Shown here in pieces: positions 28,033-62,100 of a stretch of DNA of 64,000 bases. This DNA is from Halobacteriovorax sp. (GTDB lineage: Bacteria; Bdellovibrionota; Bacteriovoracia; Bacteriovoracales; Bacteriovoracaceae), in assembly GCA_020048985.1 (NCBI GenBank), contig JAIFLR010000076.1:1-64000 (forward strand), read 5' to 3'. Position numbers and translations under genes: made by a program. The notes below the pieces were generated by a model. That model was not told where the DNA came from. It did no database searches and worked only from the letters and a program-made list of their open reading frames with translations. Positions within the stretch are counted from its first letter, which is position 1. Each line of letters starts with the position of its first letter.

Positions 28033-28530
28033 ATGAAACGGAAGGACCTTATCAACGGGCCGCTTGCAAGGGCCCGCTTAAGTAGATTAATCGCGAAACT
28101 CATAGATATAGGTCTGGTGACCTTAGGTGCAGTTTTTTACTATCCGATGGGGCTTCTTTTAGGGGTTATTTACCTCTGTATCTCTGATTCCCTCTATGAC
28201 GGACAGTCCATCGGTAAGCGTTTGATGGGATTCGGGGTCATTTCCTTAGTTGACGGCTCGCCCTGCTCCACCCGCCAGTCCTTTATTCGTAATCTACCTT
28301 TTACAGTTCCTCTCTTCTTTTTGATTTTTCCATTTTGGGGCTGGGTCTTTTCAGCTATTTTTGCAGTGCCTTTAGCCTTAATGGAAGTGTACTTCTTGTT
28401 TAAACAAAATTCAGTTCACCGCCTGGGGGACATTATGGCCGATACCACCGTTATCGCTAATGATGGCACCAGATTGGATTTGCGAAAGCAGAAGGCTCCG
28501 TGGTTTGATAGCCGTCCCGTTCCCATGTAA
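28033..28530 (+). CDS. RDD-family membrane protein
   Basis: A 165-residue protein of the RDD family: ARLSRLIAKLIDIGLV carries the first Arg and Asp, and SVHRLGDIMADTTVI is the usual C-terminal motif. Three or four membrane segments lie between, with the GKRLMG motif after the second. The role of RDD proteins is poorly defined; some act in ion or small-solute transport. It has no ribosome site, and its stop is 9 bases before the polA start, so it is probably cotranscribed with polA. Confidence 0.82.
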   Translation: MKRKDLINGPLARARLSRLIAKLIDIGLVTLGAVFYYPMGLLLGVIYLCISDSLYDGQSIGKRLMGFGVISLVDGSPCSTRQSFIRNLPFTVPLFFLIFPFWGWVFSAIFAVPLALMEVYFLFKQNSVHRLGDIMADTTVIANDGTRLDLRKQKAPWFDSRPVPM

Positions 28531-28539
28531 TAGGTGAAT

Positions 28540-31167
28540 ATGAAAAAATTAATTATTATTGATATCTCGAATTATATCTTTCGTGCATTCTTTGCCATTC
28601 GGCCACTCCATGCCCCGGATGGAACACCAGTAAATGCCGTTTATGGTGTGTTGAGCATGATTCACAACATGATTGTGAAACACAAACCAACCCACATCCT
28701 GATTGCAAAAGATACGAAAGAAGGATCTTTTAGAAAGGAAATTTATCCTGAGTATAAGGCGCATCGAACTGAGCCGCCTGACGAGCTAATTCCCCAATTT
28801 GCCTTAGTTGATGAACTCATACAGGCTTTGGGAATTCCAGAAATCAAAATGGCCAGATATGAAGCTGATGATGTGATTGGCTCAGTGGCCATCCAGTGGA
28901 AAGATTATTTTGAAGAGATCCTGATTGCTTCCGGTGATAAAGACCTCATGCAGTTTGTTGATGGTCCCATCAAAATGCTGGATACCATGAAGGATAAAAC
29001 TTACGAGCGAGAAGACGTTAAAGATAAAATGGGTGTCTACCCGGAACAGATCGTGGACTATCTCGCTTTGATTGGGGACACCTCGGACAATATTCCTGGG
29101 GTGCCAGGCATTGGACCCAAGGGCGCTCAGGGTCTCCTCGAGGATTTTGGAAGCCTTGAAAGTGTCCTTGAAAACGTTGAGGCGATTAAAAACAAAAGAT
29201 GTCAGACTGCCCTGATGGAGCATAAAGACAAGGCCATCATCTCCAAGGAACTGGCCAAAATCGTAACAGATTTAAAGCTCGCTTTTGATGCTGATAAATC
29301 CCAATACCAATTGAGAGTGACTCCAGAGCTTGAAGGATTTTTTGAAAAAGTTGGATTTCGTACATGGCTGGACAAACTGGCCGACTTCAAACCAATAGCA
29401 CCAACAATCGTTTTGAAGCCTAAAGAAAAAAAGAATCATAAGACTGAAATCTGGACACTCATTGATTTAAAACAAAATATTATTGGTGAGAAATCCATCG
29501 GTCTGTGTCATGTGTGTGATGATGAACTTAACCAACTTCAGACATGGAGTGGTGTCGCCATCGCGACTCAAAACAAGTGCGGTTACCTCACTTTGAGTAA
29601 AGAAGAGGTTTTCAATTTTATTGAAATCCTGCAGGAATCTCACGCTCTGATTATTTGTTATCAATCTAAGCCGCTGCTTCAGCAAGCCTATATTTCAGGC
29701 ATCAATCCGACATTTAAATATTTTGATCTGGCTCAGGCCCATTTCATTATCAATCCAGAATACCGTCATGATCTCTCAACCTTAAGTGAAGAATTTTTGG
29801 GTCATAAGGTTGAGGAGAGTAAAGGACAGGCAGACTTATTTGGGGGCTTGAATGATGAGGATATCTCCTTAAATGGGCAAAAGGCTCAGGCCATATGGGA
29901 TTTATTTCCCATCTTAAGGGCAAAAATGCATGAGCTGGACATAGAGCGCGCCTATGATGAGTTAGATATTCCTCTGATAAAAGTCCTTGCAGCCATGGAA
30001 CTAGAAGGTGTGAACTTGGATGTTCCTTTCTATAAAGAATTAGAAATTGAATTTTCTAAGCAAATTGAAGAAATTGAAGGCGAAGTCATCAAGGTTTCTG
30101 GCGATAAAGTTAATCTGCGTTCTCCAAAACAAGTAGGGGAATTGTTATTTGAAAAACTTCAGTTACCGGTAATTAGAAAAACTAAAACAGGGTATTCAAC
30201 CGACGCTGAAGTCTTAACAGAATTAGTATCACTGAACTTGAGTCCCATTCCGGAGCTTCTTTTGCGCTACAGAGAGGTTGAAAAGCTTCTCAGTACTTAC
30301 GTGAAAACTCTGCCGGCCATTATTAATCCTAAGTCAGGAAAAATTCATACTCATTTTCAACCCAGTAATGCCGCTACTGGGCGTTTGTCCTCTGATAACC
30401 CGAACTTACAAAATATTCCAGTTCGCACAGAGAATGGAAGAAAACTAAGAAGGGGTTTTGTGGCATCCAAGGGAAGAACACTTCTTTCAGCGGATTATTC
30501 TCAAGTTGAATTAAGGCTACTGGCGCATTTTTCACAAGATCAATCGATGCTCGAAGCTTTTCATAACGATCTGGATATCCACCGTCAGACGGCTTCAGAA
30601 ATCTTTGAAGTCCCACTAGATCAGGTCACAAAAGATCAGCGAAACAGTGCCAAGGCGATTAACTTTGGTCTCATGTATGGGCAGACAAGTTTTGGTCTCT
30701 CACAAGCTTTGCGGATTTCCCAAGGTGAAGCTAAAAAATATATTACTAACTATTTTAGAAAGTTTCATTCCGTTAAAAGTTACCTTGATGGATTGAAAGA
30801 ACTAGCAGAAGAAAAAGGTTATGCTGAGACGATGTTTGGCAGACGCCGGGCCCTTCCAGATATCAAATCCACCAATCGGCAAGTTAAGGCCATGGCCGAA
30901 AGAGTTGCCATCAATAGTCCTATTCAGGGCACAGCCGCGGACATCATTAAGTTGGCGATGATTAATATTCAGGACCTCATCTTTCAACGTAAAATGAGCT
31001 CACGCATGATTCTTCAGGTTCACGATGAACTCATCTTTGATGTGGCCCCGGAAGAATTAGAACTGATGAAAATTCTGGTCACGGAACAAATGGAAGGGGC
31101 GGTAAAGTTGAGCATTCCGCTTCGAGTTCATGTGGGCATCGGTAATAACTGGTACGATCTGAAATAA
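28540..31167 (+). CDS. polA: DNA polymerase I
   Basis: A 875-residue family A polymerase. Residues 1-290 form the 5'-3' flap exonuclease (IIDISNYIFRAFFA, the acidic ADDVIGSVA and IASGDKDLMQ motifs). Residues about 300-420 match the 3'-5' exonuclease fold, but the DxE motif of a proofreading site is not visible. The polymerase domain is intact: motif A DYSQVELRLLAHFSQD, motif B with NSAKAINFGLMYGQT, and motif C LQVHDELIFD. It fills gaps in repair and replaces Okazaki primers. ATG at 28540 is chosen, with AGGTG upstream; a GTG lies two codons earlier. Confidence 0.96.
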   Translation: MKKLIIIDISNYIFRAFFAIRPLHAPDGTPVNAVYGVLSMIHNMIVKHKPTHILIAKDTKEGSFRKEIYPEYKAHRTEPPDELIPQFALVDELIQALGIPEIKMARYEADDVIGSVAIQWKDYFEEILIASGDKDLMQFVDGPIKMLDTMKDKTYEREDVKDKMGVYPEQIVDYLALIGDTSDNIPGVPGIGPKGAQGLLEDFGSLESVLENVEAIKNKRCQTALMEHKDKAIISKELAKIVTDLKLAFDADKSQYQLRVTPELEGFFEKVGFRTWLDKLADFKPIAPTIVLKPKEKKNHKTEIWTLIDLKQNIIGEKSIGLCHVCDDELNQLQTWSGVAIATQNKCGYLTLSKEEVFNFIEILQESHALIICYQSKPLLQQAYISGINPTFKYFDLAQAHFIINPEYRHDLSTLSEEFLGHKVEESKGQADLFGGLNDEDISLNGQKAQAIWDLFPILRAKMHELDIERAYDELDIPLIKVLAAMELEGVNLDVPFYKELEIEFSKQIEEIEGEVIKVSGDKVNLRSPKQVGELLFEKLQLPVIRKTKTGYSTDAEVLTELVSLNLSPIPELLLRYREVEKLLSTYVKTLPAIINPKSGKIHTHFQPSNAATGRLSSDNPNLQNIPVRTENGRKLRRGFVASKGRTLLSADYSQVELRLLAHFSQDQSMLEAFHNDLDIHRQTASEIFEVPLDQVTKDQRNSAKAINFGLMYGQTSFGLSQALRISQGEAKKYITNYFRKFHSVKSYLDGLKELAEEKGYAETMFGRRRALPDIKSTNRQVKAMAERVAINSPIQGTAADIIKLAMINIQDLIFQRKMSSRMILQVHDELIFDVAPEELELMKILVTEQMEGAVKLSIPLRVHVGIGNNWYDLK

Positions 31168-31170
31168 GAC

Positions 31171-31197
31171 TTTAATCCATACAGAGAGTGACGATAA
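31171..31197 (+). promoter_or_regulatory. Possible sigma-28-like promoter, leaderless geometry
   Basis: GACGATAA at 31190-31197 matches 6 of 8 bases of the FliA -10 (GCCGATAA). The -35 octamer at the standard 11-base distance (TTTAATCC) is poor. The expected start falls at about the ATG at 31204, with no ribosome site between. Confidence 0.35.
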
Positions 31198-31203
31198 GTC
31201 GGT

Positions 31204-31617
31204 ATGTTTAAATTTATTTTAAGCCTTATCGGATTTTGGTCGTTTGCTGCTTTCGGCATTCCTTGTGATTGCGAAGTGAGAGTTCATTCACCTTTAACAG
31301 GGTCCCATAGAATGTCACCAGTGGTGATCAAGACCTACGAGTTAGAAGATTTTAGTTCCTTTGCACCCAAAAATATCAAGCAGTGCCAGCAATCCTGCCT
31401 GGCCGAATTTCAAAAAGACATGCCGGCCCAAAGATTAAATGCTCTGCTGATCACCTATTCTATGCAGCTCATTGAACAGAAAGTTCTTGGCTTTAACTGC
31501 ACCGGACTCACAACCTTAAAATATCCAGTCCGAGTCAAAGCGAAACTGGCCCAGACGGCACTTGGCAACGTGGCCGATATTATTCAAGTGATCAACCACG
31601 AAGAAGTCTGTTTCTAA
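31204..31617 (+). CDS. Small cysteine-containing secreted protein
   Basis: A 137-residue protein with a signal peptide (MFKFILSLIGFWSFAAFG-IP). The mature part has six cysteines, in CDCE at the start, QCQQSC, FNCTG and EEVCF at the end, so three disulfides are likely. No family recognised. Its stop lies directly against the stop of the convergent rhodanese gene with no bases between, and no terminator is seen there. It starts without a ribosome site, just behind a CGATAA element. Confidence 0.65.
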   Translation: MFKFILSLIGFWSFAAFGIPCDCEVRVHSPLTGSHRMSPVVIKTYELEDFSSFAPKNIKQCQQSCLAEFQKDMPAQRLNALLITYSMQLIEQKVLGFNCTGLTTLKYPVRVKAKLAQTALGNVADIIQVINHEEVCF

Positions 31618-31966: not shown

Positions 31967-31994
31967 TAACATTTCATATCAAAAATACCGATAA
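31967..31994 (+). promoter_or_regulatory. Sigma-28-like promoter of the M48 protease gene
   Basis: ACCGATAA at 31987-31994 matches 7 of 8 bases of the FliA -10. TAACATTT at 31967-31974 matches 6 of 8 of the -35, but the spacer is 12 rather than 11 bases. The start site would leave a short leader of about 15 bases that still holds part of the AGGAGA ribosome site. Confidence 0.45.
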
Positions 31995-32015
31995 AGTCCA
32001 AGGAGATTAAGACTG

Positions 32016-33809
32016 ATGGTCTATACGCTTTTCCTTGTTATTGCAGTTCTATACAACATGAAAAAGTTTTCTAAAGAGAGAACTGTCTTTCTTGATTCAC
32101 TCATCAAAGCAACAAATACTCAGCACCGTGAAATGATTCTTAGTCATACTTTTCATATTTTTATTTTCGAAGCGTTCTTAGGTTTTATTGTCTCCCATCT
32201 GATTTCTGAAGGGGCTTTTGTTATAGGTCTTTTGGGTCTGGGTGGTATCTATGTTGTTCTCTTGGGCTTTGGGCTTTTTCTTTATCAATATTTTTTAAAA
32301 TTTATTGAGAAATCAACTGGGCTTAATCTCCGGCAATCATTTAATCAGCATATTATTAAAGAATTACGTGTGAGTTTTGCACTTATTCTTCTACCAATAT
32401 TGCTATATTCGGTCCTCAACTGGACATTCCAGAATGAAAATCCGAATGAAGCTAGTGGGACGAGTTTCTGGCTTCTGGAAATTTTAACTAATATTATCTT
32501 TGTGTCCGTATTAACTATATCTTGCACAGTGATTATTATGCTGAGACTTTTGCCCAACCGCGAAGTCACAGAGCCCGAATATCTTGAATTGATCAATCAC
32601 CGCTTAAACCAAATAGGAATGCCTAATCTAAGGGTTAAATGGATTGAAACAGATATCAAAAACGCTTTTGTTGTTGGGATTAAGTTACTTCGTTTTTCAA
32701 ATCAGACGATGTTTATCGGCAGAAACCTTCGAACCATGTTAACCATGGAAGAGTTTGATGCTGTGATCGCCCACGAACTTTCCCACTTGGCCAACAGGCA
32801 TATCCACAAACGTGTTATTGAACTTCTGAAAAACTTCATCTCCGCTCTCATGGGCGCTGGTCTCCTCATGCTATTTACCCTGAGCTTTTTTCACCTCTAC
32901 TTTGGTGAGGACATGGGCCTCTATGAAAAACCAGTTGCAATCGTTTGTGTGATGATGTGTATGAGCTGGCTTTTTTTTAATTATTCTCTATTTTTTGATA
33001 CAATACGATCCCATGAATATGAAGCTGATGCTTTCGCTGTTATTAACTTAGGGGCGAGTTTCTCTGCCCTTAAGTCTGCCCTTGTAAAATTAACTGAAAC
33101 TGAAGAGATGCCTGAATACCTGAAATCAAAAACAAAACAGCAAAAAAAGAGAAGTCGGTTCTCGAAGATTTTCAGCACTCACCCGGAATTATCCGAACGT
33201 ATAAGTTCTTTGGAACATAAAATAGAAATGGGGCTTCCCTTCAACTATTACCTCTCAACACCTCAGAAAATTCGCTCCTCCCTTAGGTTTTGCATGCAGT
33301 GGAAGGTTTCTGTTCCAATGGCCTTTGGGTTTGTCCTTTTTTCTATTTGGACGACTCTTGCCATCAGAGACGGTGGGCGCCTGGTGAGTTTTATTAACGA
33401 GCAAAGTCCTCAAGCGGTATTAGAGAATGATTTTATTGCTAAAAATATTAATTCAAAGCCTTTCCTGATTGGGAAGAGTCTTATGTATTACATTGTGCAA
33501 AGACAAGATCCGGGCTTGATTGATTTTTATATTGATAAAGGTGCTGACCCAGGAAGAACACTGATCTATTTATCTGAGACGAAAAACTTTGATTTGTTTC
33601 GAGGCTATTATCCTACGCTGGCGCAGAATCTCTCCCATGATGAGTACTACTTGATTCTATTGAAGAGTGCAGACGTTAATTTTACTGAAGGCTACCGCTA
33701 CCTGGTGAATTCATCGAGATTTGATTCACTTAATCCTGACTATAAAGCCGAGCTGGCAAGAAACCACAAGCCAACGACAGACAGACGTCCAGCATCTACT
33801 CCTAAATAA
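32016..33809 (+). CDS. M48-family membrane metalloprotease with ankyrin-like tail
   Basis: A 597-residue protein with four membrane segments before the catalytic site, HELSH (in VIAHELSHLANRH, about residue 250), which is the HExxH zinc motif of M48 (HtpX/Ste24) proteases. The third ligand is probably the Glu in SHEYEADAF. Another hydrophobic segment lies near residue 435. The last 120 residues contain ankyrin-like units (DPGLIDFYIDKGADPGRTLIYL and similar), unusual for HtpX. The active site probably faces the cytoplasm and acts on membrane proteins. AGGAGA lies upstream. Confidence 0.88.
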   Translation: MVYTLFLVIAVLYNMKKFSKERTVFLDSLIKATNTQHREMILSHTFHIFIFEAFLGFIVSHLISEGAFVIGLLGLGGIYVVLLGFGLFLYQYFLKFIEKSTGLNLRQSFNQHIIKELRVSFALILLPILLYSVLNWTFQNENPNEASGTSFWLLEILTNIIFVSVLTISCTVIIMLRLLPNREVTEPEYLELINHRLNQIGMPNLRVKWIETDIKNAFVVGIKLLRFSNQTMFIGRNLRTMLTMEEFDAVIAHELSHLANRHIHKRVIELLKNFISALMGAGLLMLFTLSFFHLYFGEDMGLYEKPVAIVCVMMCMSWLFFNYSLFFDTIRSHEYEADAFAVINLGASFSALKSALVKLTETEEMPEYLKSKTKQQKKRSRFSKIFSTHPELSERISSLEHKIEMGLPFNYYLSTPQKIRSSLRFCMQWKVSVPMAFGFVLFSIWTTLAIRDGGRLVSFINEQSPQAVLENDFIAKNINSKPFLIGKSLMYYIVQRQDPGLIDFYIDKGADPGRTLIYLSETKNFDLFRGYYPTLAQNLSHDEYYLILLKSADVNFTEGYRYLVNSSRFDSLNPDYKAELARNHKPTTDRRPASTPK

Positions 33810-39606: not shown

Positions 39607-40305
39607 ATGCCTAACCTCTTAATAATCTTCATGATTCTCTTCACCGTCAATTCTGGTTGGTCTCAATCCAATGAAAAGAAAAACGATGAAGACGCTACCG
39701 TTTTTTCTGGTCGTATCTCTCGTTTGAATCCGGCGGCAAAACTCGCACGCATCAGAACAGATTTTGCTAATATCAAGTTTCTTAACCGAAAAGATCGCTT
39801 GGATTTTTGGAATGAAACTTATCCGGATCGTAGATGTGTGGCATTAGTCGAAGGCCGCACCAATGATTATTTGCTACTTAGAATTCCTCAATACGATACG
39901 TGTATTTTAAAAGTTCATTTTTCAAGTGGTACATATTTGCATTTTGAAAGTCCAGATCTGGAGCAGACTGTAAAAGTGGCCAAGGAATTGGTTGAAATTC
40001 TCCTTAAGAAAAGACTCGCCATGAATGCCAAGAAGACAAGACATCAGCGGGAGCTTGATGGATATGTCGAAAAAGTAGATGTCGTTAATAAGCGCTACGA
40101 AATATTGAGGCAAAAGCTTGAGATTGAATGGCAAAAAGAGCTTGCCGCAATTGAAGAAGACAAGTCTGTCTCTTTCACGGAATTTAAAAACTCTGAGGCA
40201 AGGGTAAATGAAATCGATACCAAAATTGAAACGTACAGAGTGGAAGACCATAATCTTAAACTAGATCGTTGGTCTCTTGATCCTGCGCTTTATATAAGAA
40301 AATAA
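39607..40305 (+). CDS. Secreted coiled-coil protein of unknown function
   Basis: A 232-residue protein with a signal peptide (MPNLLIIFMILFTVNSGWS-QS). Residues 35-115 look like a small beta-rich domain with two cysteines (RRCVALVEG and DTCILKVHF). Residues about 120-215 are strongly helical and charged and should form a long coiled coil. It lies 14 bases before the peptide-importer operon and may be read with it. No family recognised; a periplasmic scaffold or adaptor is plausible. Confidence 0.65.
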   Translation: MPNLLIIFMILFTVNSGWSQSNEKKNDEDATVFSGRISRLNPAAKLARIRTDFANIKFLNRKDRLDFWNETYPDRRCVALVEGRTNDYLLLRIPQYDTCILKVHFSSGTYLHFESPDLEQTVKVAKELVEILLKKRLAMNAKKTRHQRELDGYVEKVDVVNKRYEILRQKLEIEWQKELAAIEEDKSVSFTEFKNSEARVNEIDTKIETYRVEDHNLKLDRWSLDPALYIRK

Positions 40306-41931: not shown

Positions 41932-42969
41932 ATGCTGAAATATTTTCTTCACCGATTGGCCATCCTTCTACCCACCCTGATTGGGGTGACGATTGTCGTC
42001 TTTGCGATTATTAATATGGCCCCAGGTGGACCAATCGAGCAAAGAATTCAACAAATGCGTTTTGGTGGGGGAGATGGAAGTAGTTCCATGACTAAGTCAT
42101 CGAATCGAGGTTCTGAGCAGGGCGTATCAAATGAAATTATGGAAGCTCTGAAGAAACAATATGGTTTTGATAAACCGGTCCATGAACGGTATTTTTTATG
42201 GCTAAAAAATATTGCGACTTTGAATTTTGGCGAAAGTTATACTTATGAAGAGCCAGTTCTTGATGTGATTGTCAGTAAGTTTCCTGTTTCACTGCAGTTT
42301 GGAATTATCTCACTTCTTTTGAGTTATCTTATTTCCATACCTCTGGGGATTTTGAAGGCGATCAGGCATGGTAGCTTCTTTGACGTTTCTTCCAGTTTTG
42401 TTCTTTTTGTTTTTTATTCTATCCCGTCCTTCATGCTGGCGATTCTTTTGATTGTGGTTTTCTCGGGTGGAAGTTTTTTTGAGATTTTTCCCATCGGCGG
42501 AATTCAGTCCGAAATGTTTGATGAGTTAAGTTCTTGGGAGCAATTCGTTGATAGAGTTCATCACTTCACTCTGCCACTTATCTGTTACACCATTGGATCT
42601 TTTACCAGTTTAACGATTCTCATGAAGAACTCTTTGATTGAAGAAATCAAAAAAGACTACATCCGAACTGCCCGCGCAAAAGGCGTAAGTGAGAAAGTAG
42701 TCTATATGAAACACGCCCTTCGAAATGCGCTAATCCCAATTGTTACAGGGCTTGGAGGCTTTCTTTCAGTTTTCTTTGCTGGATCTCTTTTGCTTGAAAC
42801 TATTTTTCAAATCGATGGGATAGGTCTCCTGAGTTATAAGAGTATTTTATCCCGCGATTATAATGTGATTATGGGTCTGGTCTTTATCCAAAGTGCTCTC
42901 TTCCTTTTAGGAAACGTCATTTCAGATTTTGCCTATGTACTAGTTGATCCAAGGATTGATTTTACATGA
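41932..42969 (+). CDS. Peptide ABC transporter permease, OppB/DppB type
   Basis: A 345-residue inner-membrane permease with the first membrane segment at residues 9-30 (LAILLPTLIGVTIVVFAI), five more near the C-terminus, and the EAA loop that docks with the ATPase (YIRTARAKGVSEKVVYMKHALRNALIPI). A Gly/Ser-rich insertion (about residues 45-65) is longer than usual. One base separates it from the upstream binding-protein gene, and it overlaps the next permease by 4 bases. Confidence 0.93.
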   Translation: MLKYFLHRLAILLPTLIGVTIVVFAIINMAPGGPIEQRIQQMRFGGGDGSSSMTKSSNRGSEQGVSNEIMEALKKQYGFDKPVHERYFLWLKNIATLNFGESYTYEEPVLDVIVSKFPVSLQFGIISLLLSYLISIPLGILKAIRHGSFFDVSSSFVLFVFYSIPSFMLAILLIVVFSGGSFFEIFPIGGIQSEMFDELSSWEQFVDRVHHFTLPLICYTIGSFTSLTILMKNSLIEEIKKDYIRTARAKGVSEKVVYMKHALRNALIPIVTGLGGFLSVFFAGSLLLETIFQIDGIGLLSYKSILSRDYNVIMGLVFIQSALFLLGNVISDFAYVLVDPRIDFT

Positions 42970-43988
42970 TAGAAAAATTTATAAGTAATGATGATACTTT
43001 AAAAAAATGGCGAAGATTCAAGTCTCGCAAACTCGCAGTTATTTCATGCTGGCTAATTGGTATTGCCTGTTTTTTAAGTTTTACCGCTGAATTTTGGGCA
43101 AACAGCCGGCCCCTATTTCTCAAGTTCGACAATACATACTACTTTCCTGTTTTTAAAGAATACCATCCTTCTAATTTTGGTGATGAGAGCAGTCTTGTGA
43201 CAAATTACCGCGAAATTGAAATGGACGAAGATAAAGGTGATTTCGCCATATGGCCTATTGTGAGTTGGAATCCATACGAATCAAATAAAGAGGTTGAAGC
43301 TTATCCGTCAGAACCCACTTCTGAGAATTGGATGGGAACCGATGATCGAGGTAGAGACATTCTAACTCGTCTTTTGTATGGGCTTAGGTATTCCATTAGC
43401 TTTGCATTTTTAGTTTGGGTTATTACTTTCATCACTGGAACCATTATCGGTGGTTTAATGGGTTATTTTGGTGGTCGCCTTGATTTCTGGGGACAGCGAA
43501 TAGTTGAAGTTCTCTCCACAGTTCCACAATTTTTTCTCCTGATCATTATCATTTCCATATTCAAGCCAACCTTGGTGTTGCTTGTATTTCTCTCAAGCCT
43601 TTTTGGTTGGATCAGCATCAGTTATTACGTGCGCGGAGAGTATCTGAAGAATCGTAAAAAAGAATTCATCGAGGCAGCCCGCGCCTTAGGTGCTGGCCAC
43701 GCGAGAATTTTCTTCAAGCACTTACTCCCGAATTCATTGTCTCCCATTATTACTTTTTCGCCTTTCGTGATCGCTGGAAATATTACCTCACTGGCAAGTT
43801 TGGACTACCTTGGTTTTGGTCTTACTCCCCCGACGCCTAGTTGGGGAGAGCTCCTGAACCAGGCGCAAAAGCACTTTACTGAGGGATGGTGGCTTGCCAT
43901 ATATCCATCACTTGCGCTGTTCTTGACTCTCACTATGCTCTCGCTCATTGGTGAGGGAGTGAGGGATGCTATGGATCCTAAAGATTAA
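42966..43988 (+). CDS. Peptide ABC transporter permease, OppC/DppC type
   Basis: A 340-residue permease partner of the OppB-type protein. It has a first membrane segment near residue 25, a periplasmic loop, WMGTDDRGRDILTRLLYG before the main membrane core, and the EAA loop FIEAARALGAGHARIFFKHLLPNSL. No OppD/OppF ATPase gene follows; the next gene is a peptidoglycan enzyme with its own promoter. The ATPases must therefore be encoded elsewhere. The 3' end overlaps the -35 region of that promoter. Confidence 0.93.
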   Translation: MIEKFISNDDTLKKWRRFKSRKLAVISCWLIGIACFLSFTAEFWANSRPLFLKFDNTYYFPVFKEYHPSNFGDESSLVTNYREIEMDEDKGDFAIWPIVSWNPYESNKEVEAYPSEPTSENWMGTDDRGRDILTRLLYGLRYSISFAFLVWVITFITGTIIGGLMGYFGGRLDFWGQRIVEVLSTVPQFFLLIIIISIFKPTLVLLVFLSSLFGWISISYYVRGEYLKNRKKEFIEAARALGAGHARIFFKHLLPNSLSPIITFSPFVIAGNITSLASLDYLGFGLTPPTPSWGELLNQAQKHFTEGWWLAIYPSLALFLTLTMLSLIGEGVRDAMDPKD

Positions 43989-44005
43989 CCGAGCATTTCC
44001 GATAA
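43979..44005 (+). promoter_or_regulatory. Near-perfect sigma-28 (FliA-type) promoter
   Basis: TAAAGATT, an 11-base spacer, and TCCGATAA match the FliA consensus (TAAAGTTT-N11-GCCGATAA) at 14 of 16 positions with exact spacing. It overlaps the last codons of the OppC-type gene. The expected start is at about the ATG at 44013. Confidence 0.72.
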
Positions 44006-44012
44006 GAAGGCT

Positions 44013-46835
44013 ATGGTATTCAGATGCCTTTTTATTTTTCTATTTCTTGGCTCTTTGCCGTCAATGGCGCAGGTCACGGCCGAGTGTGAAGCCGCGCTAA
44101 AATCATTATTCGCTTCAAGTGTATCCAAGGAACAAGCTTCAGATTTTTTGAAAGTCCAAGGTGATATCACCTTACACCGAATGGCCTGGGCGTATTTAAA
44201 GGTCCAGAAATCTGATCAGAGCGCTAAATTAGAAAACGTTGAAAGAACGATTCTGACACTTCTGGATGAAAAATATACCTCCCCTGATCCGAAATTTATT
44301 AAGGCCAGAGAAGCCTTTGAATCTCAGCCACTCAGTCGCACGACCTTGGCCGATATTGGTCCCTACTTGAAAGACGTGCTCTCGCAAGAATTTGGACCAG
44401 AGTCTCAAGCCTTTATTTTAAATGCCTCTGACTTAAAACTTCTCCACGCCCTTTCAAAATATGAAAAACAATCTGCCGTGAATGGGAAATTCAATTCCCG
44501 CATGCTCGCCCGCAAGTCACCGGAAGGCATGTTGAACTTTATAAAACTTATTAACTCTTCTTATAAAACTGATACTTCTGAAAATGAAAATGCCCTGAAT
44601 GTAGAACTTAAACTTCAAGGTCTAGAAAAAACCATTGGCCACCTTCAGAAGAAGATTAACGACTTCATAAAGGATTTAAACGTACCGAGTCAGTGCAAAG
44701 AAACAGAAGTCTGCAGTGATGAAGATAAAAAGATGATCGGTTTTTTTGAGAATAGTGACCAAATTCAAAATATGTTCTGGGACAGTCTTGCTGACAAGTT
44801 AGAAACTGACGATATGCTCTTAAACAATCTAACCTATGGAGAGATTTGGCTGCGAACAGGGCCTTCCTCGGCCTTGATCAAACAAAGTCCAACGAATCCA
44901 AAGAAAGTGACTACAACTGTTGTTGCGAGCAAAACCAAAGTCACCCATACTTCACCTGTAAAAGAATTCTATGCAACGAGTACTGGCTACTATGTTGAAG
45001 ACCCTATTGCCATTATTGTCAAAGATGATCCAAAGAGAAATTCCAATGCCTGGAAGGGGTTCGATCCAGTTTTCTTGGGGAAAATGTCTGATGCAATTAT
45101 AAACGACGACATGGTTTTTGAAATCGATGGGAAACTCTATAGTCGCAAGACTGGTAGAGTTCTATCAATCGAGGCAGCCCTTAAACTTTTACCTCCTAAG
45201 AAGTCTGCTGAGTCAGCACTTTTATTAAAATCCAAAGATCCAAAATTTATCTCCAAGCAACTCGCTTCCATTTTAAATGGGGACCAAACATTTATTTATG
45301 GCACTGGTCTTTATGGGGCCAATGGAAAAGTCCTGAATCCAGAGCTGGTTATTGCTCAGGAAATGTCAAAAAAGACGGGTGGGAAATTTGAAGCCTCTCG
45401 GTATTCGGGAATGGAACGGGGGTATCTGATAGCCCGCGCAGATGGGTTGAAAAATAACAAACCTCATTTTATGTATAAAAACCAGGTCCATGATTCTTTC
45501 ACCGGAAGAAATTTAACTTCTCCATTTAGAAGCACAGCTTCCATTGAAGATGTAAAAATCAATAAACAAAAACGGATTCAGTACCAAAGTTTGTCAGACA
45601 AAGAGACCATTATTAATTTTCATTTGGATAATCCGAGAAAAGATGGATGTCAGCACTATGCAATCGTAGATAAGAAAAAGGCTGAAATCTCCGTTTACAA
45701 TCTTTCCGGCACAAAAGTGTTTAATAAAGAAGTCTTGATTGGGGTGAAAGCCTCTGATGAAAAGACTAAATGGACTGAGTATAATGATAGAAAGCATCAA
45801 GGTAATTACACTACTGGTGCCGGATCCTTTACTATTGCTCAACCCAAGAAAGGGGATTATTACAGCAAAAACTTTAGTAATAATATTCTTCAAATTGAGG
45901 GTCAGCTAGTTTTTGCCATTCATCAGGTTCCAAATGATCTTGGGAAAAGATATCAGTCTTTTGGAACCGGAAACCCGCTGCACAGAAGGGTTTCTCAGGG
46001 CTGCGTGAATATGAAACAAACAGATTTTCAAGAGTTGTCTAAATGGATGAAGCCGTCTTGCCAAGTATATGTTTTGCCGGAAGAAAAAAATAATAAGTTC
46101 ACTGTTAAAGATGGGAAATTAGAATTCGTTTCAACCACAGCAGTGACCAATAGTAATAATTATAATTATTCAAAAAATGGTCCAAGTTATAAACCTATCA
46201 ACATCATCATTAATGCTCCCGTAGCCAAGACCAAAGATTCGGTTCCTTTTGTGAAGGCCCTTGAGGACGAAAAATCAAAACTCATGAAGCTCTTTAATTT
46301 AAATAATGATGATTATAATGATTTGGCCTCTATTGCTTTTGGGATCATGGGCAATGAATCCAATTTTGGTACCAGTAAAAAATATTGGATTAAAGAGCAT
46401 GATCAGGGTGACGTGATCCTGGCCAAAGCGGCCAAGCGCTTATTTAGTGGTAAGAATCCCTTTGATAAATCAGTTCTAAATACTTCCCGTGGTTTTACTC
46501 AGATTAAGGATTTGCCAGATGGGGCGTGGAGAAAGGCCTATCCAGGAATTAATAAAGAAACTTTGGGTGATCCAAAAAATTCTGCCGTCTCAACCATTGC
46601 TTACCTGGTTGGCGCCACCAAAATTCTGAAAAGTATTGCCGCTGAAAACGCTAAAGACCCCCGGAAAGTGAGGATAACTAAGGAAAACCTGGTGGATTAT
46701 CTGGGGTATATCTATCAAGGCCGCAAAGGGGCCTTAAAGTCCGCTGATGATCCGGCCAACGCCGATTTTAATACCTATGTTCAAAAACTTCGTAAAAATA
46801 TGAGTTATATTGAGATAGCCCAAAAAATTGAATAG
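44013..46835 (+). CDS. Secreted L,D-transpeptidase fused to a lysozyme-like domain
   Basis: A 940-residue protein with a signal peptide (cleavage near SMAQ). Residues about 540-690 are a YkuD L,D-transpeptidase domain with His637 and the catalytic Cys664 in RRVSQGCVNM. Residues about 765-935 look like a lysozyme/lytic-transglycosylase fold: IMGNESNFG with Glu782 as the likely catalytic acid, then SRGFTQIKD. The first 500 residues are unassigned. One chain could thus cut glycan strands and link or trim stem peptides, suited to prey-wall remodelling or to growth inside prey. The start follows a sigma-28-like promoter; only a weak GAAGG lies 2 bases before the ATG. Confidence 0.82.
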   Translation: MVFRCLFIFLFLGSLPSMAQVTAECEAALKSLFASSVSKEQASDFLKVQGDITLHRMAWAYLKVQKSDQSAKLENVERTILTLLDEKYTSPDPKFIKAREAFESQPLSRTTLADIGPYLKDVLSQEFGPESQAFILNASDLKLLHALSKYEKQSAVNGKFNSRMLARKSPEGMLNFIKLINSSYKTDTSENENALNVELKLQGLEKTIGHLQKKINDFIKDLNVPSQCKETEVCSDEDKKMIGFFENSDQIQNMFWDSLADKLETDDMLLNNLTYGEIWLRTGPSSALIKQSPTNPKKVTTTVVASKTKVTHTSPVKEFYATSTGYYVEDPIAIIVKDDPKRNSNAWKGFDPVFLGKMSDAIINDDMVFEIDGKLYSRKTGRVLSIEAALKLLPPKKSAESALLLKSKDPKFISKQLASILNGDQTFIYGTGLYGANGKVLNPELVIAQEMSKKTGGKFEASRYSGMERGYLIARADGLKNNKPHFMYKNQVHDSFTGRNLTSPFRSTASIEDVKINKQKRIQYQSLSDKETIINFHLDNPRKDGCQHYAIVDKKKAEISVYNLSGTKVFNKEVLIGVKASDEKTKWTEYNDRKHQGNYTTGAGSFTIAQPKKGDYYSKNFSNNILQIEGQLVFAIHQVPNDLGKRYQSFGTGNPLHRRVSQGCVNMKQTDFQELSKWMKPSCQVYVLPEEKNNKFTVKDGKLEFVSTTAVTNSNNYNYSKNGPSYKPINIIINAPVAKTKDSVPFVKALEDEKSKLMKLFNLNNDDYNDLASIAFGIMGNESNFGTSKKYWIKEHDQGDVILAKAAKRLFSGKNPFDKSVLNTSRGFTQIKDLPDGAWRKAYPGINKETLGDPKNSAVSTIAYLVGATKILKSIAAENAKDPRKVRITKENLVDYLGYIYQGRKGALKSADDPANADFNTYVQKLRKNMSYIEIAQKIE

Positions 46836-46856
46836 TCCTTCCATCAATGTTATATA
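46828..46856 (+). promoter_or_regulatory. Sigma-70-type promoter of the aminotransferase gene
   Basis: TTGAAT and TATATA are spaced 17 bases apart, at the end of the preceding gene. The leader of about 12 bases contains GAGGAA before the ATG at 46876. Confidence 0.6.
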
Positions 46857-46875
46857 CCTCTGATCGAGGAAAATT

Positions 46876-49119: not shown

Positions 49120-50049
49120 ATGACGACCGTCAGCAATCCGCCGGAAATTAAATACTTTAATCGTATGACCGGTAAGAATGAAATTGAGAAGGTGTATGGG
49201 GACTCATTCATTAAGTTTTTATACTGCTCCGTAGCAGGAAAGAAGATAGGAAGCGCCTTTACCAATAAGTTTTTTAGTAAGGCCTATGGTGCCTTTCAGG
49301 ATCTTCCTTCTAGTCACAGGAAGGTTAAACCCTTCATTGAAAAGTTCAATATTCCTATTCAGGATTATGAGCCTGGTTCAAGACCTTCGCTAGATTCAAG
49401 TGATTCTTACCGCTCATTTAATGAATTTTTTATTCGCAAATTTAAACTAGGGAAGCGCTCATTTGTTTCAGAATCTAATCGTATGGCGGCGTTTGCTGAG
49501 GCCCGCTACGTAGGTTTTGATTCTATCGATGAGAAAAGTGTCTACCCAGTTAAGGGCCAGTACCTTCTTGCGAAGGACCTAATTGCTAACGATCAAATTG
49601 CTAAGATTTTTGAGGGTGGCCCGCTTTTGATTGCTCGTCTGTGCCCTGTTGATTATCACCGCTACCACTACCCTGATAATGGAAAAGTAATCGAGCATTA
49701 CCCAGTTGCCGGTGCATTTGATTCCGTTAATCCGCTGGCCTTGAAATATAAAAATCAAATTTTCATCCAGAATGAAAGACACGTTTCAATACTCCAGACC
49801 GAAAATTTTGGACGACTGGCCTATATTGAGGTCGGCGCTATTTGTGTTGGTAAAATTGTCCAAACACATCGCTGGAATAAACCTTTCATGCGCGGTGAAG
49901 AGAAGGGCTATTTTCTCTTCGGTGGATCGACTGTGATCCTCATTGGTGAAAAAGGTGCCTGGAAACCTTCTGGTGACATCACAATGAACACTAAGAATGG
50001 AATTGAGACCTATTTACATCTTGGTCAAGAAGTCGCTGTTAAAGCCTAA
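49120..50049 (+). CDS. psd: Phosphatidylserine decarboxylase
   Basis: A 309-residue enzyme with the family motifs LCPVDYHRYHYP and VGAICVGKI. The self-cleavage site is FGGSTV, where the serine becomes the pyruvoyl cofactor of the alpha subunit. It decarboxylates phosphatidylserine to phosphatidylethanolamine at the inner membrane. AGAGGA precedes the ATG, and a near-consensus sigma-70 promoter lies upstream. It converges on the EEP hydrolase gene with an 11-base overlap of 3' ends. Confidence 0.94.
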   Translation: MTTVSNPPEIKYFNRMTGKNEIEKVYGDSFIKFLYCSVAGKKIGSAFTNKFFSKAYGAFQDLPSSHRKVKPFIEKFNIPIQDYEPGSRPSLDSSDSYRSFNEFFIRKFKLGKRSFVSESNRMAAFAEARYVGFDSIDEKSVYPVKGQYLLAKDLIANDQIAKIFEGGPLLIARLCPVDYHRYHYPDNGKVIEHYPVAGAFDSVNPLALKYKNQIFIQNERHVSILQTENFGRLAYIEVGAICVGKIVQTHRWNKPFMRGEEKGYFLFGGSTVILIGEKGAWKPSGDITMNTKNGIETYLHLGQEVAVKA

Positions 50050-50812
50050 TTTTGCATATAATGGGATAATGATCTGTTGGGTAAAGGCCGTTTGAGGCTG
50101 ACTTATCCATCAGACAGCTCTCTACCGAAAGTTTGGCATCAACCATGATCCAATCAATGCGCGAGCCATTTTGAATTTCACCTTTAAAGGCGTGATGAGA
50201 AGTCTCTTCAACGCTGTTAAAAAGACTCCAGGCGTCCTGTAAAAATGAAAACTCATCCATCAAAAATTCCCGCACTTTACTGGAAGGTGAGTCGTTAAAG
50301 TCGCCCATAATAATAAGTGAACTTTGCTTATCCCAAATTCTTTTTATCTCCTGGGCAAGCACCTTGACCTGACCTAATCTGGTTTCTGGTTTGACGTGGT
50401 CTAAATGGGTGTTCACAATAAAGAGATTTTCTCCAGAACCTTTCACTTGAATTTTGGTCCAGGTCATAAGTCTAGGGAAGGCACTTTCAAAGGAGTGACT
50501 TCCGGCAATGTCGGGTGTTTCTGAAAGCCACATGTCTCCACTTGCAATGAACTCAAACTGATTACGCTCGAGAAAAATCGAGGGATACATCCTCTCACCA
50601 ATCCAAGACCGATGTTGATCAACAAGATCAAAATTTGTTAATGACGATTTAAGTTGGTTTAACTGATGAATTCGCCCCTCTTGAGTCGCTATAAGTGAGG
50701 GAGCGTGTTTAAGGAGAGTTTGAGCAAGAAATTCCCGCCGATGTGGCCAAGAGTTTTGGCCATCTGCGGGATTATCGAATCTAATATTGCAGGATATGAG
50801 GCACAGTTCCAT
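50039..50812 (-). CDS. Endonuclease/exonuclease/phosphatase (EEP) family hydrolase
   Basis: A 257-residue EEP-fold protein: LISCNIRFDNP at the start, a catalytic Glu in ATQEGR, the Asn/His pair in VNTHLDH, the Asp/Asn pair in IMGDFNDSP, RIDWIMVDA and the terminal Asp-His in YPTDHYPIIC. It has no signal peptide. Relatives include nucleases, phosphodiesterases and lipid phosphatases, so the substrate is open. The ATG follows 6 bases after a perfect TATAAT, with no ribosome site. Confidence 0.9.
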   Translation of the reverse strand: MELCLISCNIRFDNPADGQNSWPHRREFLAQTLLKHAPSLIATQEGRIHQLNQLKSSLTNFDLVDQHRSWIGERMYPSIFLERNQFEFIASGDMWLSETPDIAGSHSFESAFPRLMTWTKIQVKGSGENLFIVNTHLDHVKPETRLGQVKVLAQEIKRIWDKQSSLIIMGDFNDSPSSKVREFLMDEFSFLQDAWSLFNSVEETSHHAFKGEIQNGSRIDWIMVDAKLSVESCLMDKSASNGLYPTDHYPIICKIRL

Positions 50813-59071: not shown

Positions 59072-59098
59072 TTAAGAAATTCTGAGAAAGTTCGATAA
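59072..59098 (+). promoter_or_regulatory. Sigma-28-like promoter of the modular receiver/TPR gene
   Basis: TTCGATAA at 59091-59098 matches 6 of 8 bases of the FliA -10. At exactly 11 bases upstream stands TTAAGAAA, a partial -35 (4 of 8). The -10 ends 8 bases before the ATG at 59107 with no ribosome site. Confidence 0.45.
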
Positions 59099-59106
59099 GT
59101 ATTCGT

Positions 59107-62100
59107 ATGACGAACGTCCCAATTATAAAATTTATGTTTCGATCCGAATGGAAGGCTTTGCCTGATGCTTTGCATATGGGTCCGGTCTACGAGTCTGAAA
59201 ATTTTGATTCTGCCAATGACATAACTACTTTTTTAAGTGGAGTCCCAGCAGGATTGGTTATTGTCTCTCTCCAGGATAAGAACGATCTCGTCCAGCTAGC
59301 AACGATGATGAAGCTTGTGAAGAAAGTCGCATCAGGTACTACTTTGAAAGTGATGGTAGTTAATTTTTCTGCCAATAGGCAGTTTGAAAAAGCTGTCGAA
59401 AAATTAGGAATTTTAGATTTAATTGATGGAAAAATCCAGACCAAAGCCTTGAGATATAAGATCGACTTTATGATGAAGTCGATAAACGCTCAGTTAAAGA
59501 AAAGTGCGAACGCTGCTACTAGTTCGGTTAAGGCTTTAGAAAATACAAAATCCCAAGAAAAGAAAGCTGCTGAAAATATCCCAGTTTGGTCAAGTCCACT
59601 GGATTGTGAAGATGATATCTGGATCCTTCGCGCGGAAGTCGATTGTAAAAAGATTATTAGCAGATGGTTAATCAAGCTTGTTGGCCCTAGCCCCTACGTT
59701 GCGGGCTGGGTAGAGTCAGGCACACCTGGGCTCTGGAAGTTCGATTTCAAATCAAACAAAGATTCATTTATAGCTGGTGAGGGGACTTGGTACTTTAGCG
59801 GGGATCAAAAACCAGATTTCATTTGGAATGAAAATATATGGACTTTTACTGGTGAATCATTCGAATTATATTACAAAGAGAAAGACCAGAATTTATCTCG
59901 CCTGAAGCTAAAAGATAAAACACTAACTATCTCTAAAACATCTGAATTTGCCAGGATGAGAGAGAAAGTCATTCTTGAAAGCTTTGACAAAGACCTAGTC
60001 TTTAAAAAAGAGCTTCAGGAAAATATTGAAAATGAAAATTTTGATGGTGAAAAAGAGAAACTTCAGAATCTTGCAGGCAAGGGAAAGACTGAATCACTTA
60101 CCCAAGGGCCACTTTCAGGAAAAAGCAAGACCGATGCTCTGAACAATGATCCTCTTTCAGGAAAAAATAAGACAGACTCCTTAAATCAGGGTCCACTATC
60201 AGGAAAAACTGAGCCTTCTGGGAACAAAAAAGATGATCCTCTAGCGATGGATCTTGAGTCTGGCGATAACTCATTAAACAATGATCCTCTTTCACAGAAG
60301 ACCAAGACCACAAAGGGATCCACTTTCTGGAAAGGTAAAAATGAATACGAAAAAGAGGGCAAGCCTGAGGCTGATGACTTGCATTCTACTGCTAGCGAAG
60401 GAGTAAAGTCTGGAGCAGAACTTTCTCTGGATGCAAATGGTAAGCACGAGAAATATTATAAGAATCATAATGAAGCTGAAAAATTTGAGGCTAAAGATGT
60501 TGGCCACGCGATTAAAAAAGATGGAGTCAGTGACAATCTTAAGGGAAAAACTGATCCTACCCAAGCTGCGCAAAATGGTGCAGCTGATTTAAACGGGAAG
60601 TCCTCAACTGACAAGTTGAAGGCGCACCTTACTTCACCAGAATCGGCAAAGGACAAGTCGGGTCAAGGTGAAACTCAAAAGTCTGAGAGAGATTTGAGTG
60701 GAAGAAATTCAACCGATAAACTTCAGGGGCATTTAACATCTCCAGACGCAAAAAAACAAAATGCTACGAAAGAACTTTCGGGTGAAAAGACGCTAGGTCA
60801 TGCAGCTGCTGAAAAAGAAGCCAAAGAAAAAGCAGCCAAAGATGCGACTACTTCTAAAACTGAAATTGAGAAAAAGACAGAGTTACTGGCCGCTCTTAAG
60901 GCAAAAAAACAAAAAATAGAAGAAGAGAACCAAGAGAAAGAAGCCATCGCTAAAAGAAAAGAAAGCGCTTCATCAGCAGCCTCTAAACAAAACGCTGATG
61001 GAGAGAATCTTGATATAGATAAAGATAAAACACGGTCTAAAGAAATATTGGATAAAGAGAAATCATCGGCCACTAGACTGGAAAGCGAAACCAAGTCAGG
61101 CAAGTTACTTAATTTTAAAGACAAAGAAGTTGAGAGTAACTTTGAAGCAACTAATATCTGGTCCAGAGATTTGGATGAATCGATACAAACGGCAAAAGTA
61201 ACCTCTTATCTTGTGCAAGATCAAACCAGGGTTAGTTGTAATCTGGATGATCATTTTGACCAGTCGATTATTTTCACGACCACCGAAAGTGGTATATCAC
61301 AGTCTGAAAAAGTTACTTTAAATTTAAACTTTAAATATCTCAATAAGAGCACGGATCTAAAGTTTGATGGAAATATTACTCAAATGGAATCAGATCATGA
61401 AGGAACTCAATACATTACGGTTGAGATCTCAAAAGAGAACGTTTCGGCTTTTAATGCTTTTATGAAGTTGTACAATATGCGACAGAAGAACATCGACTTT
61501 TATTCTGAGAACGAGATCCTAGTGGTTGATAAGAATCCTGGATCACGCAATAGACTTCTCAAAATTGTCTGTGACATGGGTGCCAAGAGACACTTGGTAC
61601 ACACGGCCAGCGGCTTGGTAGAAGCGACAAATGTATTGAATGAAAAAAAGATAACTCTTGTTTTGTCCGATTATCTGGTTGCTGGTGGATCAGGCTTTGA
61701 TCTATTCAAGATGCTGCGTGAGCAGCAGCCAACCAATAAAGATCTTTGTTTGGTCCTGGTTACTTCAAACATATCTCAAACGGCTGTCGCTAAAGCTGCC
61801 GAGGAAGATGTAGATTCGTTTATCATTAAGCCTTACACCCTTCAGAGTATCCAAGAGAATTTAATTTCAACCATCGTCGCGAAGGTTAGTCCCTCTGAGT
61901 ATATGCTTAAGATAGATGAGGCCAAAAAATTCATTCAAATAGCAGATTTGGATAAAGCAACTGAGCTTCTAAATCAGGCGATGAAGCTTCATCCTAAACC
62001 GGCACTTGCTCTCTTTTACATGGGTCAAGTTGAATACATGAGAACCTATGTTGAAGAGGCACAGGGTTCATACCAAGAAGGACTTTCATTCAACACTATT

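Follow-up and report, generated by a model that had tools for sequence, protein, structure and literature searches.

Among the closest described systems is the FliA attack-phase regulon of Bdellovibrio bacteriovorus, which belongs to the same phylum as the present organism (Karunker et al. 2013, PMC3627812). As given in the main text of that paper, a FliA-type motif was found at 92 of 140 attack-phase promoters, and this motif, TTAAG-N16-CCGATA, governs many non-flagellar genes, including those for surface proteins and proteases; the spacer in the present lineage is mostly one base shorter, and the word 'leader' does not occur in that main text (PMC3627812). FliA was reported to be essential in B. 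bacteriovorus (PMC5430801). In reporter constructs of the same species, deleting the ribosome site lowered expression from the tested promoters, which were not native leaderless junctions (PMC12622784). In a survey, 8 of 33 delta-proteobacterial genomes were reported to contain leaderless genes, and Streptomyces coelicolor whiH, which is read by sigma-WhiG and has the arrangement GCCGACAA-N7-GTG, was listed as experimentally leaderless (Zheng et al. 2011, PMC3160421). The locus described here resembles whiH in the FliA/WhiG class of its predicted sigma factor and in the 7 nt that separate a -10 element of the GCCGACAA type from the start codon. However, whiH is a single regulatory gene of an actinobacterium, whereas here a class of genes, mostly for exported proteins, is found in Bdellovibrionota. 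A search of the open-access literature for leaderless mRNAs in connection with Bdellovibrio, FliA or sigma-28 found no description of such a class, and an mRNA layout that begins at the start codon appears to have been overlooked in the attack-phase literature searched.

The window, i.e., the whole stretch of 64,000 nt that was analysed, contains a FliA-type element immediately before a gene for an exported L,D-transpeptidase. We propose with a probability of about 0.78 that the element at 43979-44005 is a functional promoter giving a leaderless mRNA from the A of the ATG. RNA polymerase with FliA, or with a second FliA/WhiG-like sigma factor, would read the element, and the first base of the RNA would be the A of the ATG (44013) or lie within about one base of it. 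Translation would then begin directly at the AUG that forms the 5' end, with no Shine-Dalgarno site involved, and by analogy with Bdellovibrio the L,D-transpeptidase would be produced while the cell is in its motile attack phase, a timing that we regard as plausible. The features of the locus, together with the gene for the second sigma factor, are listed below.

42966-43988, forward strand: oppC-type ABC transporter permease gene, the gene next upstream; its stop codon and the -35 element overlap
43979-43986, forward strand: -35 element TAAAGATT, 7 of 8 positions of the sigma-28 consensus
43987-43997, forward strand: promoter spacer of 11 nt, which is 11 nt in most orthologues and 12 nt in the others
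43998-44005, forward strand: -10 element TCCGATAA, 7 of 8 positions of the consensus
44006-44012, forward strand: gap GAAGGCT of 7 nt between the -10 element and the ATG, with G first and a pyrimidine last, as in the class
44013, forward strand: first base (A) of the start codon, predicted to be the transcription start from the pyrimidine/purine step, class statistics and the whiH precedent
44013-46835, forward strand: exported L,D-transpeptidase gene, 940 aa, with the N-terminal signal peptide MVFRCLFIFLFLGSLPSMAQ
45654-46073, forward strand: YkuD L,D-transpeptidase domain, aa 548-687, with the motif SQGCVN
46149-46832, forward strand: helical C-terminal domain, conserved and containing the motifs GNESxFG and SRGxTQIK, which alone make it muramidase/GH23-like
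46836-46875, forward strand: conserved gap ahead of an aminotransferase gene; it contains a GAGG ribosome site and, at 46848-46856, the extended -10-like sequence TGtTATATA
L032:1468-2172 (G000 contig C2): second FliA/WhiG-family sigma factor gene, 234 aa

The initial annotation had described a near-perfect FliA promoter with exact spacing whose -10 element ends 7 nt before the ATG, and its sequence and coordinates were found to be correct. The element, TAAAGATT-N11-TCCGATAA, agrees with the consensus TAAAGTTT-N11-GCCGATAA at 14 of 16 positions, and its 11-nt spacer lies in the 10-12 nt range that separates the TAAA(G) and CCGATAA cores of FliA promoters. It was the sole match with two mismatches or fewer on both strands of the window, for which about 0.07 matches were expected from base composition; with up to three mismatches, chance alone predicts about one match per window. 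Across the whole genome, 12 matches with at most two mismatches were found against about 3.7 expected. With three mismatches and no ATG condition, the genome gave 99 matches and the reversed pattern 86, and because this count is near background, a bare 13/16 match says little. The same annotation had called the GAAGG before the start codon (ATG, 44013-44015) crowded as a ribosome site; it ends 2 nt before the ATG, closer than a normal Shine-Dalgarno site would lie.

The genome also encodes the proteins that such a promoter calls for. One protein (L031) is a clear FliA, scoring 268 bits against a curated cut-off of 189.6, and eight flagellin-domain matches were found, with apparent FliA elements before flagellin genes that were judged by eye only. 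Together with the conservation described below, these findings agree with the assignment of the element to the sigma-28 type, and 43979-44005 is very likely a real promoter.

The encoded protein had been annotated as a transpeptidase-muramidase, and the first half of this name was confirmed. The YkuD domain (Pfam PF03734) was recognized at 29.9 bits against a cut-off of 23.4, its catalytic Cys lies in an SxGC(I/V)x motif, and H637, G663, C664 and N666 are invariant in eight orthologues. A Pfam YkuD score above the cut-off and the SxGCxN motif are shared with YkuD-family L,D-transpeptidases; unlike the family norm, the present protein is 940 aa long, with a long N-terminal region and a C-terminal domain that has no Pfam assignment. 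No such confirmation was obtained for the muramidase half of the name. The GNESxFG and SRGxTQIK motifs recall lytic transglycosylases, and E782 in the GNES motif is invariant among the eight orthologues. However, the C-terminal domain of the window copy had no Pfam match, and NCBIfam and PDB sequence searches gave nothing decisive. The structure model of this domain had a pLDDT of 81, and a fold search with it returned no PDB structure at E ≤0.001; MltF had the highest probability among the matches listed, at only 0.33. The muramidase label for the C-terminal half is hence a guess.

Absence of the element in related genomes had been named in the initial annotation as evidence against the promoter, and the comparison came out in its favour. 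A FliA-type element was present in all 11 same-genus gene copies with readable upstream DNA (L045-L051, L053, L055, L235 and L245), with N-CCGA(T/C)AA kept at the -10 position across the orthologues, and it was also present in L054, from a second genus. When nine of the same-genus copies and L054 were scored against shuffled upstream DNA, each gave P ≤0.03 and most gave P <0.001. In 8 of the 11 same-genus copies, one of which (L053) starts with GTG, exactly 7 nt separate the -10 element from the start codon; the distance is 6 nt in L055, 11 or 20 nt in L235 and 12 nt in L051. Among these copies the distance between the -35 and -10 elements is held at 11 or 12 nt and the distance to the ATG is usually held too. 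In L054 a tRNA gene is found upstream in place of oppC, and GCCGATAA still lies 8 nt before the ATG. Among more distant homologues, L233 has the -10 element alone, and L230, from another genus, has no such element upstream and carries a GGTGG sequence resembling a ribosome site instead; in those with fused or split frames the start codon is unassignable.

The same comparison bears on the origin of the match. In the window, the -35 element overlaps the final codons and the stop of oppC (protein end ...DPKD*), and this overlap recurs in the closest relative, as would be seen if AAAGATTAA were merely the end of the oppC coding sequence and the match had arisen by chance. In the other same-genus copies, however, the gap is longer and the -35 element is located past the end of oppC, with its distance to the -10 element kept; the length of the gap varies, and the position of the element tracks the start codon and not the stop of oppC. 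Because the overlap is confined to the window and its nearest relative, and given the P values of the scored copies, an accident of coding sequence was ruled out, and we consider a chance match highly improbable.

In Actinobacteria and Deinococcus-Thermus, leaderless genes read by sigma-70 carry a -10 box about 6-7 nt before the start codon and have no Shine-Dalgarno site. The transpeptidase gene, with its 7 nt and no usable Shine-Dalgarno site, falls within the 6-8 nt typical of leaderless genes; unlike that case, an alternative sigma factor would act here, and leaderless genes of the FliA and sigma-70 types appear to coexist. FliA-type elements form two groups. In the first they lie 5-9 nt before an ATG that lacks a Shine-Dalgarno site; in the second the distance is about 20-36 nt, and a Shine-Dalgarno site is present in many cases. 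In a set of 101 sites picked regardless of ATG, the ATGs peaked at 7 nt, with 10 against 1.1 per distance (P = 2e-7, or 1e-4 when counting 7 gene families), and a second group appeared at about 20-36 nt, with Shine-Dalgarno sites in many. Exact-ATG matches numbered 92 at the 7-nt spacing and 40 at a 12-nt spacing. The base before the ATG was a pyrimidine in 65 of 68 close sites, compared with 84 of 129 Shine-Dalgarno genes (P = 5e-7); the orthologues in this test are not independent, and a smaller set of start contexts, freed of identical duplicates, gave P = 0.004. Transcription usually starts at a pyrimidine/purine step, and the pyrimidine excess thus fits a +1 position at the A of the ATG.

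The extent of the class was estimated by pattern searches with reversed-pattern controls and from the stretches around the matches. Among 10 genus-mates, 138 matches with at most two mismatches were found against 37 for the reversed pattern. With an ATG required at 7 nt and at most three mismatches allowed, the pattern was found 192 times in 26 genus-mates, or about five times as often as its reversed control (hand-summed). In the family, the ATG-linked pattern with at most two mismatches matched 93 of 129 genomes, with more than 140 occurrences among the matches listed against 12 in the control, and in a sample of the phylum the ATG-linked pattern was matched in 98 of 192 genomes. By a simple hydrophobicity and lipobox rule, 28 of 40 genes with close sites look exported, compared with 10 of 33 leadered genes and 14 of 39 window genes (P between 0.001 and 0.003). 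The transpeptidase gene is one case of a phylum-wide class of FliA-type, probably leaderless genes that is biased to exported proteins. The leaderless layout proposed in the initial annotation agrees with both the geometry kept among the orthologues and this class-wide pattern, and from this arrangement the transpeptidase mRNA is likely leaderless.

Where exactly the RNA begins and how the gene is mainly expressed could nevertheless differ from the proposed reading. If transcription started a few bases upstream of the ATG, the mRNA would be short-leadered, with 1-5 nt ahead of the ATG, and the ribosome might be aided by GAAGG or by a standby mechanism. Start sites can shift by a base or two, the -10 element lies 11-12 nt from the ATG in L051 and L235, and GAAGG is present in the window copy. 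However, this sequence is replaced in orthologues by GAAAGCT, GAGAAGT, GAACGCT, GTCTTCT or GTAAGAT, and both whiH and the pyrimidine at position -1 point to the A of the ATG, so that we regard a short leader as unlikely. Equally unlikely, in our estimate, is a real promoter that only provides a phase-specific boost by FliA, while expression comes mainly by read-through from the oppABC-type operon and translation is coupled to oppC. The gap between oppC and the transpeptidase gene is 24 nt, a terminator scan between the two genes found none, and oppC is the upstream neighbour in nine genomes of the genus, counting that of the window. Against such read-through, L054 keeps the element without an opp neighbour, and in relatives the two genes lie up to about 50 nt apart, with no Shine-Dalgarno sites in between. 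Downstream, the -10-like sequence in the conserved gap suggests that the aminotransferase gene has its own promoter.

The proposed reading allows for either of two sigma factors. The FliA/WhiG-family protein of L032 scores 176.6 bits, below the 189.6-bit cut-off, and if it read the element, the gene would belong to a regulon apart from the flagella. This is somewhat less probable still, as the genome has a clear FliA in L031, and the elements seen by eye at flagellin genes do not distinguish the two factors.

With a FliA-type promoter and a leaderless mRNA as the preferred reading, the results suggest that the motility sigma factor of predatory-type bacteria controls envelope enzymes via mRNAs that start at the start codon. 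If so, some genes of the attack-phase regulon would be misjudged by programs for gene prediction and expression that rely on the presence of a ribosome site. A bolder proposal, which we make only tentatively and hold to be doubtful, is that part of the FliA regulon in Bdellovibrionota forms a dedicated leaderless branch, rich in secreted proteins and lipoproteins, in which translation from 5'-terminal AUGs would act as a second switch between attack and growth, at the level of the ribosome.

Leaderlessness as a trait of FliA genes only was considered and rejected. The hexamer TATAAT, with one mismatch allowed, peaks 6 nt before ATGs (12 against about 1.5 per distance), although this is weaker evidence, as the reversed hexamer gives 7 at 6 nt. 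With a sigma-70 -10 peak at this position, leaderless genes seem general in the lineage, and leaderless sigma-70 genes seem to be present alongside those of the FliA type. The leaderless interpretation of the initial annotation was therefore supported, but it is peculiar neither to the transpeptidase gene nor to FliA. Three genes in the window, at 50039-50812 (reverse strand), 39607-40305 (forward strand) and 28033-28530 (forward strand), have TATAAT, CATAAT or TACAAT 6-7 nt before the ATG and no Shine-Dalgarno site, and are likely leaderless genes of the sigma-70 type.

Several other FliA-type sites were observed. At 31165-31206 of the window, GACGATAA lies 6 nt before the ATG of a gene for a small exported protein (31204-31617), and a homologue of this protein in L080 (54% identity over 59 aa) is preceded by TTAAGTAA-N11-GCCGATAA-N7-ATG; the gene is probably another leaderless FliA-type gene. 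At 59072-59109, TTAAGAAA-N11-TTCGATAA lies 8 nt before the ATG of a gene for a 1215-aa response-regulator/TPR protein, possibly a further member of the class. At 31984-32016, ACCGATAA followed by AAGGAG precedes the gene at 32016, and this may be a leadered FliA-type element. A 16/16 FliA element lies exactly 7 nt before an ATG in a genome from another family of the phylum (G223:C17:115747-115783). The identical arrangement TCAATTTT-N11-GCCGATAA-N7-ATG recurs in four genomes of one genus (G180, G199, G203 and G217; genus g83, family f6), which suggests a conserved leaderless gene outside Bacteriovoracaceae.
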